DNA from: a bacterium
GTDB taxonomy: Bacteria; Thermosulfidibacterota; Thermosulfidibacteria; Thermosulfidibacterales; Thermosulfidibacteraceae
Length of the DNA: 6,592 bases
Direction of reading: 5' to 3'
Assembly: GCA_027022065.1 (NCBI GenBank)
Contig: JALVZS010000201.1
Span: forward strand, 1-6,592
Below are positions 1 to 5,736 of the stretch, piece by piece. Positions within the stretch are counted from its first letter, which is position 1; the number at the start of each line of letters is the position of its first letter. The notes under the pieces were generated by a model that made no database searches, was not told the DNA's origin, and worked only from the letters and a program-made list of their open reading frames with translations. The translations under genes and the position numbers were made by a program.

Positions 1-3000
1 CTAATGAGCCGCTTCAGCCCTTTCCACTTTAAACACGAACTCGCCGTCTTTTGCGTCCACGATCACCTTGTGCCCTTCCTTCAGCTCTCCGGTGAGTATA
101 AGCTCGGAAATCCTGTTTTCTATGTTCTTCTGTATGGCCCTTCTTAAGGGCCTTGCACCCATGAGGGGATCGTAACCTTCTTCGGCAAGAAGCTCTTTGG
201 CAGCATCCGTAAGCTCTATGTCCATGCCCTGATCCTTCAGACGCCTCCTCAGCTGGGAAATCTGAAGCTCAACTATCTGGAGTATCTGCTCCTTGGTGAG
301 AGGATGGAACACCACTATCTCGTCAATCCTGTTGAGAAACTCAGGCCTGAAGAAGCCTTTAACCGTATCCAGTATTCTTCTTTTTGCAACCTCAAAGGCC
401 TCTTTGAACTTCTTCTCATCCCTCATTATCTCTGGATTGCTCATCATGTCCCTGAGATACTCGGAGCCAAGGTTGGACGTCATGATGATTACGGTGTTTC
501 TGAAGGATACGGTCCTGCCCTTGGAGTCGGTGAGCCTTCCATCGTCCAGCACCTGCAGGAAGAGGTCAAACACCCTGGGATGGGCCTTCTCTATTTCGTC
601 AAGCAGTATCACGGAGTATGGACGGCGCCTTACAGCCTCCGTGAGCTTTCCTCCTTCTTCATACCCCACGTATCCAGGAGGGGCGCCTATGAGCTTTGCA
701 ACCGAGTGCTCCTCCTTGAACTCGCTCATGTCCAGCCTTATGAGGGCATCCTCGCTACCGAAGAGGAATTCCGCAAGGGCCTTTGCAAGTTCGGTCTTTC
801 CAACGCCTGTGGGACCCAAGAAGAGGAAAGAACCAAGGGGCCTTCTGGGATCAGATATGCCGGCTCTTGCCCTCCTTATGGCCTCGCAAACGGCCTTTAT
901 GGCCTCATCCTGACCGATAACCCTCCTATGGAGGTACTCCTCCATCTTGAGGAGCTTCTGCTTCTCCTCCTCCATCATCTTGGATGCGGGAACGCCGCTC
1001 CACTCGGAAACAACTTTAGCCACATCCTCTCCATCCACCACGATGTCAGAGGCAACACCCTCTTCTTTCTTTTTCTTAAGAAGCTTAAGCTCCTTTTCCA
1101 GCTTGGCCTTCTCTATCTTAAGTTCAGTCTCCTTATCTATATCCTCCGCCTCCTCAGCCTTCTTTATCTCCTCATCAAGCTCCGTCACCTTCTTAGTCAG
1201 GCTATCTATCTTGGCATCTATGTCAGCACTTCTTTCCGCAGCAGCCACGGCCTTCTCAAGCTCTTCCTTCTTCCTCTCAAGCTCTTTTCTCTTTGCCTCG
1301 TCCTTCTCCTCAGATATGGCCTTTTTAAGCTCCTCAAGCTTCTCTTTCAGCTCGTCAAGGGATTTCTGCTGGTATATTGCCTCAAGCTTCTTCTTGGCGG
1401 CAGCCTGATCAAGGGCGTCTATGGCCTTATCGGGATTGCGCCTGTCTTGTATGTACCTTCCCGTAAGCTTAACAGCAGCTTCAATGGCTTCATCCGATAT
1501 GCGGACACCATGGTGCTTTTCATACTTGGGTCTGAGGCCCCTTAGTATCTCCATGGTTGCCTCAGGAGTTGGCTCCTCCACGAATATGGGCTGGAACCTC
1601 CTCTCAAGGGCGGGATCCTTCTCAATATACTTCCTGTACTCGTCCAAGGTGGTGGCGCCGATGACCTGGAAGTCTCCTCTGGCCAAGGCAGGCTTGAGGA
1701 TGTTTGCGGCATCCATGGCACCTTCGGCACTACCAGCTCCTACTACGGTGTGGATCTCGTCTATAAACAGGATCACATCGTTTCTGGACTTCACTTCATC
1801 AACGATAGCCTTGAGCCTTTCCTCAAACTCTCCCCTGTACTTGGTTCCGGCAAGCAAGGCCCCCATATCAAGAGAGAGGATCCTCTTGTTCTTGAGGGCA
1901 TCCGGAACATTACCCTTAACTATCTCCTGGGCAAGTCCTTCAACTATGGCGGTCTTACCAACTCCCGCCTCTCCTATGAGAACGGGATTGTTCTTCTGCC
2001 TTCTGGAGAGCACCTCTATAACCTGCCTTATCTCCTTCTCCCTACCTATTACGGGATCCAGCTTACCCTCTTCCGCAAGCTTCGTGAGATCAACCGTGTA
2101 CTTCTCCAGTGCTCCCTTCTCCTCGTCTGCCACCTCTTCCCTTATACCCATGGCTTTACCCTCCTTAGACACAGCTTTTGTTATTTGATTCAGGATGTTT
2201 CCACCAACGGTGTTAGGATAGGCCAGAAGGGCGTCAACCAGATCGGCTACGCCAACCTCGTCTTTGCCCTCTGAGGCCTTCTCCACCACCTTCTCCATGA
2301 AGTATGAGTATCCCACCTTGTCAAAACGCTCGTTGAAAAGAAGCCTCAGGATGCTTCTCACCACACGGCGGGGATCCACACCTGAGCTTGCAAGCTGCTG
2401 CAGAGAGTTGGAAATCTTTTCCCCAAGATCCGTGAGGTAAACCACCACCTCATCAGCCACCTCTTCTGAAACCCTGTGCCTTGCAGCAGCCTCCCTCACG
2501 TAGTCCACAAAGGCCTTGGGTACCTCAACAACCTCCTCCCTCAGGCTCCAGCGCACACTGGGACGCTCAAAGTCGCTGAAGAAGCTGCCGAAGAACTCAG
2601 AGAATATATCCTCTCCGAAAAACTCCTGGATGAGGCTTCTGGTTCTCTCCCTGACAGGGGCCCACCTCTTCACCTTTATGGGCACCCTGTCCTTCACTCC
2701 CTCTCCCTTAAGCCCTCTGTAAATGGAGTCATCAATCTGAAGAAGAAGCGCCTTCATCACATCGTCTGCAAAGTCCATGCCGTACTTGGAGCGAAGCTCA
2801 TCCCTTGTCTTCATAACAGCACTTCTGTAGGAATCCTCCACAGAAGAAAGCTGGGAATAGAGGTTTTCCAAGGCCTTTTCCACCTCCGCCCTGGCAGAGG
2901 AGGGATCTACTCCCTTCTTCTCAAGCCACCTGTAGAAGGGATTGCCCTCTTTAACGGAAAAGAGAGCCCACACAAAGTGATCAGTATCTATAAGGCTCTC

Positions 3001-3069
3001 CTTTCTATCCCTAGCCCTTTTCTCCGCCCTATCCATCACGGCCTTTGCTTTGGCGTTGAGCTTTGCCAT
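1..3069 (-). CDS. clpB: ClpB-type AAA+ protein disaggregase with enlarged N-terminal region
   Basis: Hsp104/ClpB-family hexameric ATPase; family members pull polypeptides out of aggregates through a central pore, with DnaK, in the cytoplasm. Visible in the 1022 residues: Clp_N-like halves (about 6-68 and 255-295); AAA+ module 1 (about 325-552) with Walker A GEAGVGKT 366-373, Walker B ending D437-E438, pore loop KYRG 410-413 and Arg fingers R490/R491; a Lys/Glu-rich coiled-coil middle domain (about 553-685); AAA+ module 2 (about 700-1022) with Walker A GPTGVGKT 752-759, D824-E825, pore loop GYVGY 799-803, Arg finger R914 and sensor-2 GARPLRR 971-977. The long middle domain and lack of an IGF/IGL-type ClpP-docking loop after TSNLGS (865-869) favour ClpB over ClpC/ClpA. 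It is about 160 residues longer than usual ClpB (about 860), the excess being in the N-terminal region. The ATG at 3069 follows a consensus SD. Stop is TAG. Both ATPase sites look intact. Confidence 0.95.
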   Translation of the reverse strand: MAKLNAKAKAVMDRAEKRARDRKESLIDTDHFVWALFSVKEGNPFYRWLEKKGVDPSSARAEVEKALENLYSQLSSVEDSYRSAVMKTRDELRSKYGMDFADDVMKALLLQIDDSIYRGLKGEGVKDRVPIKVKRWAPVRERTRSLIQEFFGEDIFSEFFGSFFSDFERPSVRWSLREEVVEVPKAFVDYVREAAARHRVSEEVADEVVVYLTDLGEKISNSLQQLASSGVDPRRVVRSILRLLFNERFDKVGYSYFMEKVVEKASEGKDEVGVADLVDALLAYPNTVGGNILNQITKAVSKEGKAMGIREEVADEEKGALEKYTVDLTKLAEEGKLDPVIGREKEIRQVIEVLSRRQKNNPVLIGEAGVGKTAIVEGLAQEIVKGNVPDALKNKRILSLDMGALLAGTKYRGEFEERLKAIVDEVKSRNDVILFIDEIHTVVGAGSAEGAMDAANILKPALARGDFQVIGATTLDEYRKYIEKDPALERRFQPIFVEEPTPEATMEILRGLRPKYEKHHGVRISDEAIEAAVKLTGRYIQDRRNPDKAIDALDQAAAKKKLEAIYQQKSLDELKEKLEELKKAISEEKDEAKRKELERKKEELEKAVAAAERSADIDAKIDSLTKKVTELDEEIKKAEEAEDIDKETELKIEKAKLEKELKLLKKKKEEGVASDIVVDGEDVAKVVSEWSGVPASKMMEEEKQKLLKMEEYLHRRVIGQDEAIKAVCEAIRRARAGISDPRRPLGSFLFLGPTGVGKTELAKALAEFLFGSEDALIRLDMSEFKEEHSVAKLIGAPPGYVGYEEGGKLTEAVRRRPYSVILLDEIEKAHPRVFDLFLQVLDDGRLTDSKGRTVSFRNTVIIMTSNLGSEYLRDMMSNPEIMRDEKKFKEAFEVAKRRILDTVKGFFRPEFLNRIDEIVVFHPLTKEQILQIVELQISQLRRRLKDQGMDIELTDAAKELLAEEGYDPLMGARPLRRAIQKNIENRISELILTGELKEGHKVIVDAKDGEFVFKVERAEAAH
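2149..2166 (-). promoter_or_regulatory. Candidate internal ribosome binding site and start codon inside clpB (Met307)
   Basis: Read on the minus strand, AAGGAGGG (2166-2159) lies 7 nt before an in-frame ATG (2151-2149) encoding Met307. The site is as strong as those of the other genes and sits just before the first AAA+ module begins (KYTVDLTKL at 323-331). Initiation here would give a 716-residue ClpB lacking the whole N-terminal region. E. coli and cyanobacterial ClpB are known to make a shorter form from an internal start. The SD bases also encode Lys-Glu-Gly, so chance remains possible. Confidence 0.5.
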
Positions 3070-3239: not shown

Positions 3240-3246
3240 AGGAGGT
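3240..3246 (+). promoter_or_regulatory. Shine-Dalgarno site of leuS
   Basis: AGGAGGT lies 6 nt before the ATG at 3253. It marks 3253 as the native leuS start, although that frame meets a TGA 16 codons later. The downstream in-frame ATG at 3367 has no SD in the usual window; the nearest, AAGGAGGA (3328-3335), ends 31 nt before it. Confidence 0.85.
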
Positions 3247-3252
3247 AACTTC

Positions 3253-5736
3253 ATGAAGAGGTACAATCCGCAGGAGATAGAGGAAAAGTGGCAGAAGAGG
3301 TGAGAAGAAGCAGGACTTTTCAGGGTTAAGGAGGACGAAGAAAAGCCAAAGTACTACTGCCTTGAAATGTTCCCATACCCCTCCGGAAGGATACACATGG
3401 GACACGTGAGGAACTACTCCATCGGTGATGTGGTGGCCAGGTTCATGAGGATGAAAGGGTACAATGTGCTTCATCCCATGGGCTGGGATGCCTTCGGACT
3501 TCCCGCGGAAAACGCCGCCATAAAGCACGGTGTTCATCCCGCCAAGTGGACATACGACAACATAGCATACATGAAGAAGCAGCTCAAAAGGCTCGGTTTC
3601 TCATACGACTGGGACAGGGAAATCGCCACCTGCGACGAGGAGTACTACAGGTGGGAGCAGAAGATCTTTATACAGATGCTGGAAAGGGGGCTGGCGTACA
3701 AGAAGAAGGCTCCGGTGAACTGGTGCGAGAAGTGCCACACGGTGCTTGCAAACGAGCAGGTAGTGGGCGGCAGGTGCTGGAGGTGCGAGAGCGAGGTGGT
3801 AACCAAGGAGCTTGAGCAATGGTTCTTCAAGATAACGGCATACGCCGATGAGCTTCTTGAAGGGCTGAAAAAGCTTAAGGGCAAGTGGCCCGATAAGGTT
3901 CTGATGATGCAGGAAAACTGGATAGGAAAATCTGAAGGTGCTGAAATAGAGTTTAAAATTGTGGGAAGAAACGAAACCATAAGGGTGTTCACCACAAGGC
4001 CCGATACCGTTTACGGCATAACCTTCATGAGCCTTGCACCCGAGCATCCGCTGGTGGATGAGCTTATCAAGGAGCATCCGGATTATGAAAAGGTTAAAGC
4101 AGAAGTTGAGAGGCTCAGAAAGCAGCCAAAATCGGCCAGGCTTTTAGAAGAGTTTGAAAAAGAGGGTGTGTTCACGGGAGCCTACTGCATCAATCCCTTT
4201 ACGGGGGACAAGGTTCCCATCTTTGTTGCGAACTTCGTGCTCTACGAGTATGGAACGGGTGCGGTGATGGCGGTTCCCGCCCATGATCAGAGGGACTTTG
4301 AGTTCGCCAAAAAGTACAACCTGCCCATAAAGGTGGTGATACAGCCTAAGGACAAAGAGCTGGATCCCGAAACCATGACGGAAGCCTACGAAGAAGAAGG
4401 GTACCTGGTAAACTCAGGGCCGTTTACAGGTATGCATAACGAGGAGGCAAAGAAGGCCATAGTTGAGTATATGGAAAAGGAGGGATTCGGGAAGAGGGCC
4501 GTTTCATACAGGCTGAGGGATTGGCTCATATCCAGACAGCGCTACTGGGGAGCGCCTATTCCCGTCGTGTACTGCGAAAAGTGCGGTATCGTCCCTGTGC
4601 CCGAGGAGGAGCTTCCCGTCAAGCTTCCAAAGGATGTGGAAATAACGGGCGTGGGAAATCCTCTTGAGAAGGTGGAAGAGTTTGTAAAAACAACATGTCC
4701 CAAGTGCAAAGGTCCTGCAAGAAGGGAAACCGATACCATGGACACCTTCGTTGAATCTTCTTGGTACTTCTTCAGGTTCTGCTCCGCAAAGTACGATAAA
4801 GGTCCCTTTGACAGAAAGGCGGTGGACTACTGGATGCCTGTGGATCAGTACATAGGCGGAGTGGAGCACGCAGTTCTACATCTTCTGTATGCGAGGTTCT
4901 ACACCAAGGTGCTAAGGGATCTGGGCTATACGGATGTGGATGAGCCCTTCAGCGCCCTTTTAACCCAGGGAATGGTTCTTAAGGACGGAAGGAAGATGTC
5001 CAAGTCCTTTGGGAATGTGGTGGATCCCGACGACATGATAGAAAAGTACGGGGCCGACACTGTAAGGCTCTTTCTGCTATTTGCCGCCCCGCCCGAAAAG
5101 GACCTTGAGTGGAGCGATCAGGGCATAGAGGGCTGCTACAGGTTCCTCAACAGGCTTTGGCGCATCCTCACAGACCACATTGAACAGATCAGAGAAAAGA
5201 AGGGGGACTTTAACTTTGAAAAGCTCTCAGATGCGGTAAAGAAGGCGGTAAAGGCCACCCACAAGCTCATAAAGAAGGTAACATCCGACATAGAGAAGTT
5301 CAGGTTCAACACGGCCATTGCCGCCTTCATGGAGTACACAAACGAGCTTTACGAGCTTGAGGCGGGAATAAAGTGGGAGGAGGAAAACGAAGCAAAAGCT
5401 CTAAGGGACTGCTTTGAGAGGGTGATTATTGCCATTTCTCCGTTTGTGCCCCACTTTGCCGATGAGCTTTGGAGCATACTGGGAAACGAAGGATTTACCC
5501 TTCAGCAGAAGTGGCCCAGCTACAATGAGGCCTGGACGAAGGAAGAGAACATAACCCTGATAGTTCAGGTAAATGGTAAGGTTAGGGCAAAGATTGATGT
5601 GCCTGCCGGGCTCTCCAAAGAGGAACTTGAGAGAATAGCCCTTGAAAACGAAAGGGTGAAGAAGTGGATTGAGGGCAAGAGCATTGTAAAAACCATAGTG
5701 GTGCCTAACAAGCTGGTAAACATCGTGGTTAAATAA
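3253..5736 (+). CDS. leuS: Leucyl-tRNA synthetase, interrupted by in-frame TGA at codon 17
   Basis: Class Ia synthetase that charges tRNA-Leu with leucine and hydrolyses misacylated tRNA. Numbering from the ATG at 3253 (827 codons): HIGH-type HMGH 48-51; zinc-type cysteines C158, C161, C175, C178; CP1 editing domain (about 228-416) with TTRPDT 247-252 and [15 protein letters not shown] 334-348, whose D345 matches the editing Asp of the family; a second cysteine set C441, C444, C482, C485; catalytic KMSKS 581-585; anticodon-binding helices; and a C-terminal tRNA-binding domain (about 768-827). The leucine-specific insertion before KMSKS is almost absent. The frame is open from 3367 (789 residues) to TAA, but codons 1-38 contain TGA at 3301-3303 where homologues have Trp (KRWEEAGLF-type context). 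Starting at 3367 would remove the first strand of the catalytic fold, so it is a doubtful start. A gene in decay, a sequencing error or readthrough are the alternatives. Confidence 0.93.
3301..3303 (+). other. Premature in-frame TGA in leuS at a conserved Trp position
   Basis: Codon 17 reads TGA in the frame that begins with a good SD and ATG and continues into clear LeuRS sequence. Residues on both sides ([11 protein letters not shown] before; EEAGLF after) match the family N-terminus, so the frame is not shifted. One G-to-A change from TGG explains it. All 20 other Trp codons of leuS are TGG. Confidence 0.9.

Follow-up and report, generated by a model that had tools for sequence, protein, structure and literature searches.

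How could a bacterium make leucyl-tRNA synthetase (LeuRS) if the reading frame for this essential enzyme is closed by a stop codon sixteen codons after its start? Such an interruption appears in leuS on contig 201 of a draft genome. The draft comprises 251 contigs with a total of 1,571,795 bases; its completeness is 88.3% and its contamination 2.66%. In the window, the whole stretch of 6,592 nucleotides analyzed here, leuS occupies the plus strand and a gene for a ClpB-like AAA+ ATPase the minus strand, and a GAF-GGDEF gene is cut by the contig end. The features relevant to the question are the following:

3240..3246, plus strand: Shine-Dalgarno motif AGGAGGT of leuS, read directly from the sequence
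3253..5736, plus strand: leuS, bacterial leucine--tRNA ligase, 827 codons with codon 17 taken as Trp, otherwise intact
3301..3303, plus strand: in-frame TGA, codon 17 of leuS, Trp in 103 of the 103 other aligned LeuRS
3367..3369, plus strand: next in-frame ATG (Met39 of the full frame); a start there drops residues 1-38

The ATPase gene next to leuS (window 1-3069, minus strand, 1022 amino acids) finds its best NCBIfam match in ClpB, with 1022.9 bits against a cut-off of 1232.1 bits. The protein matches the ClpB profile only from residue 294. Clp_N was detected at residues 15-67, followed by a segment (residues ~70-290) without a match to any listed family.

An interrupted frame in a constrained gene

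An earlier note, made from the sequence alone, had placed the natural start of leuS at ATG 3253 and a TGA in frame with it at codon 17. We confirmed both from the sequence. Six bases separate this ATG from the Shine-Dalgarno motif, and the TGA is followed by 810 open codons, up to TAA at 5734-5736. When the TGA is read as Trp, the product matches the bacterial LeuRS profile TIGR00396 over profile positions 1-843 with 1149.5 bits, a full-length match well above the curated cut-off of 548.4. This match bears out the claim that the residues on both sides of the TGA belong to LeuRS. The product also contains the LeuRS editing domain (PF13603, 262.5 bits, residues 221-408) and an anticodon-binding domain, and it aligns from residue 1 with LeuRS from Thermus thermophilus (1H3N). 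The family assignment of leuS rests on these profile matches. An uninterrupted frame from its own start, which is needed for function and not for family assignment, is absent; the assembled frame is broken at codon 17.

We aligned 104 LeuRS and counted deviations at the 238 columns with a conservation of at least 95%; with codon 17 set to Trp, leuS has none. By the same count, the near relatives G001 and G002 deviate once each. Comparison of leuS with its counterpart in G001 gave a dN of 0.15 and a saturated dS of ~3.3. This gene is strongly constrained and has no lesion other than the TGA, which is therefore either very recent or not real.

The enzyme might instead be made in a shorter form, if ribosomes reinitiate or initiate internally at ATG 3367. 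This codon is in frame, 63 bases past the TGA, and an SD-like AAGGAGG motif occurs at about 3328-3334. The spacing between the two, however, is ~33 bases, and no ATG, GTG or TTG lies in frame at a normal distance after this motif and before 3367. The earlier note had described the fallback ATG as one without a nearby Shine-Dalgarno motif that costs the protein 38 residues, and this description is accurate. The lost segment extends into the catalytic start of the enzyme, which is conserved, and a protein initiated at ATG 3367 would open with MFPYPSG, inside that conserved region. Moreover, every aligned LeuRS relative keeps its N-terminus: none in the 104-sequence alignment lacks the segment preceding Met39. 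A LeuRS truncated to Met39 is probably inactive, and we regard a productive restart as very unlikely.

Relatives and the decoding of UGA

We compared leuS among nine genomes of the phylum including this one, distributed over five genera in three families. In the other eight, the matched stretch of leuS is free of stops. All 103 other sequences of the LeuRS alignment have Trp at the position of codon 17, and a filtered homologue scan placed Trp opposite this codon in 70 of 70 aligned queries. Reading the lesion as a clean TGG-to-TGA substitution of a conserved Trp codon is therefore well founded. In a gene that depends on readthrough, two or more species would be expected to share a stop at the same site, and the earlier note had raised the possibility that relatives share the TGA. 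They do not (0 of 8 genomes, 0 of 103 LeuRS). The same note had pointed to a second leuS as a possible rescue; no second bacterial leuS was found in the genome, the assembly of which is 88.3% complete.

The comparison also revealed some variation in LeuRS architecture. The proteins of G004, G006, G007 and G008 (L019, L015, L020 and L016, respectively), genomes of the same taxonomic order, match in two pieces, with a break near query residue 541 (~579 of the full frame), and their open frames are longer (869-922 codons). These alignments suggest an extra inserted segment that is absent from this genome and from G001, G002 and G003. Finally, G002 contains a second partial leuS match (G002:C168:1970-3232; 75% identity over query residues 370-789); the estimated contamination of that genome is 6%.

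Trp is precisely the residue expected at the leuS TGA, as it would be if UGA encoded Trp throughout the genome. Genetic codes of this type (code 4) are recognized by TGA being absent or rare as a stop and by a tRNA-Trp that has the anticodon UCA or is a known suppressor variant. In a sample of 436 genes of at least 150 codons, 183 end in TGA, 141 in TAA and 112 in TAG, so that TGA is the most frequent stop. The 1550 Trp codons in these genes are TGG. The genome contains prfB, the gene for RF2, although this gene is cut by a contig end. Among the tRNA genes found in the 88.3% complete assembly there is one tRNA-Trp, with the anticodon CCA, and no tRNA with the anticodon UCA. Nor does any other TGA fall on a conserved Trp in the homologue-covered sample. 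Genome-wide reassignment of UGA to Trp is refuted by the use of TGA as the commonest stop, and we give this reading practically no weight.

Decoding of UGA by a tRNA-Trp with a CCA anticodon is known to be promoted by G24A (the Hirsh mutation), by A9C and by an unpinned anticodon stem of 4 base pairs (PMC13092985). In the tRNA-Trp of this genome, whose positions we assigned manually along its sequence, base 9 is A and base 24 is G, and the anticodon stem contains five Watson-Crick pairs. The suppressor tRNA-Trp considered in the earlier note was thus not found in the 88.3% complete assembly, as judged from the anticodon, positions 9 and 24, and the anticodon stem.

UGA can also be recoded as selenocysteine. 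The genome encodes SelB (contig 124:17265-19115, L275), which may indicate that some UGA recoding occurs in this lineage, and a weak hairpin can be drawn downstream of the leuS TGA. A selenoprotein gene is expected to combine a SECIS-like hairpin that exceeds chance with a tRNA-Sec in the same genome. For leuS, the RNA fold after the TGA has a z-score of -1.39, and 15 of 200 shuffled sequences fold as well. The hairpin is not common to the relatives, in three of which the same stretch folds differently. No true tRNA-Sec was found: the only match of the tRNA-Sec model above its cut-off in this genome is a tRNA-Trp on contig 21 (47.6 bits against 47), whereas the same model detects clear tRNA-Sec genes in the relatives G003 and G004. 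A search for formate dehydrogenase, intended to provide a positive control with an in-frame Sec TGA, gave no match in the genome. Since the relatives have Trp and not Cys at this site, and since neither a true tRNA-Sec nor a convincing hairpin was found, we rejected selenocysteine as an exceedingly improbable reading of codon 17.

Frequency of in-frame stops in the assembly

We scanned 567 kb (about a third of the genome) by coding statistics, keeping only stops with coding sequence on both sides. Four of 45,789 stops passed this filter, and the leuS TGA ranked first. It is more than a chance stop in a non-coding frame. In a homologue-based scan that covered ~36,800 codons (~110 kb), with antisense shadow frames filtered out, the leuS TGA was the only convincing in-frame stop. 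Since neither scan returned another convincing case, errors of this kind are not frequent. The assembly is not error-ridden, and the leuS TGA is an isolated event that needs explaining.

The other matches were judged by eye. Of the three further candidates from the coding scan, one looks like the normal start of a gene whose product has a signal-peptide-like N-terminus, and the other two look like non-coding or antisense frames. The remaining matches of the homologue scan are shadow-frame matches, gappy matches or alignments that extend past a gene start.

About 2-4% of random substitutions in coding sequence create a stop, so that even a low consensus error rate can suffice for an occasional stop per genome. 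TGG-to-TGA accounts for ~3-12% of random nonsense changes with the codon usage of this genome, depending on the assumed transition bias. This share provides a modest argument for an event that is compatible with Trp at codon 17.

Origin of the TGA and comparison with known systems

A base-level artefact of the assembly is probably behind the leuS TGA, a rating that reflects our judgement and was not computed. According to this explanation leuS would be an ordinary, functional and essential gene of the organism, and the TGA a single-base artefact: the consensus of this 6.6 kb contig, part of a fragmented draft genome, would have A where G belongs. In the living cell codon 17 would be TGG, and LeuRS would be made at full length from ATG 3253. 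Error is the likeliest origin because the relatives have the normal codon and because the organism uses TGA as an ordinary stop. From the TGA being unique to this genome, from its being the only lesion of the gene and from UGA being read as stop, we infer that sequencing reads would show TGG at this position. The earlier note had considered a sequencing or assembly error the simplest account, and the relatives without TGA, the failure to find a second leuS or a suppressor tRNA-Trp, and the normal use of TGA as a stop support this view. Two observations speak against it. Outside the leuS TGA the MAG looks clean in both the ~110 kb and the 567 kb scans, and leaky decoding of UGA as Trp would tolerate precisely a TGG-to-TGA change.

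The consensus could also report a true base that comes from a minority or dead allele in a mixed population, or the cell could rely on a second leuS that the incomplete assembly does not contain. Mixed populations are commonplace in metagenome bins, and both the completeness of 88.3% and the contamination of 2.66% leave room for such scenarios. On the other hand, no second bacterial leuS was found, duplicate leuS genes are rare in bacteria, and the leuS at hand shows no further decay. Taken together, these two variants are unlikely, although a non-viable minority allele that entered the consensus stands beside base error among the most likely causes of the TGA.

The TGA might, finally, be real and fixed, with enough LeuRS produced by leaky decoding of UGA through the ordinary tRNA-Trp(CCA). 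Of the three stops, UGA is the leakiest in Escherichia coli, where readthrough usually inserts Trp, and a G directly after the stop lowers termination (PMC11126739). The leuS TGA is followed by G, and Trp is the residue needed at codon 17. Readthrough has been proposed for in-frame stops in conserved bacterial genes (PMC7918605). That study, however, accepted only stops common to two or more genomes, in order to exclude sequencing errors; the leuS TGA occurs in none of the relatives and would have been discarded. The tRNA-Trp has no known suppressor features, prfB is present, and a yield of a few percent would presumably starve the cell of an essential enzyme. We therefore consider survival on leaky decoding quite unlikely. 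More doubtful still is the specific proposal that the TGA is a real feature of the species, with constitutive leaky UGA-to-Trp decoding and a LeuRS supply that is tied to termination efficiency. The argument from a Trp-compatible change is outweighed, in our judgement, by the relatives without TGA, by the intact standard decoding and by the low prior for a single-copy essential synthetase that depends on readthrough.

If the TGA is an error, as we favor, the lesson is one of caution only: because of one base in a draft genome, an essential gene can appear defective, and annotation pipelines would label leuS a pseudogene or let it begin at Met39. If the TGA is real, leuS would offer a clean natural example of a tolerated nonsense codon, in an essential synthetase gene that depends on UGA readthrough, and charging of tRNA-Leu would be tied to termination efficiency.

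The leuS product shares the editing and anticodon-binding domains and the N-terminal Trp column with T. thermophilus LeuRS (1H3N) and the other members of TIGR00396. In contrast to these enzymes, codon 17 is TGA in the assembly. The case resembles those in PMC7918605 in that an isolated stop interrupts a gene that otherwise appears constrained, but the stop described here occurs in one assembly only. Similarly, the suppressor tRNA-Trp variants of PMC13092985 have the same CCA anticodon as the tRNA-Trp of this genome, which differs from them by A9, G24 and a full anticodon stem of 5 base pairs.
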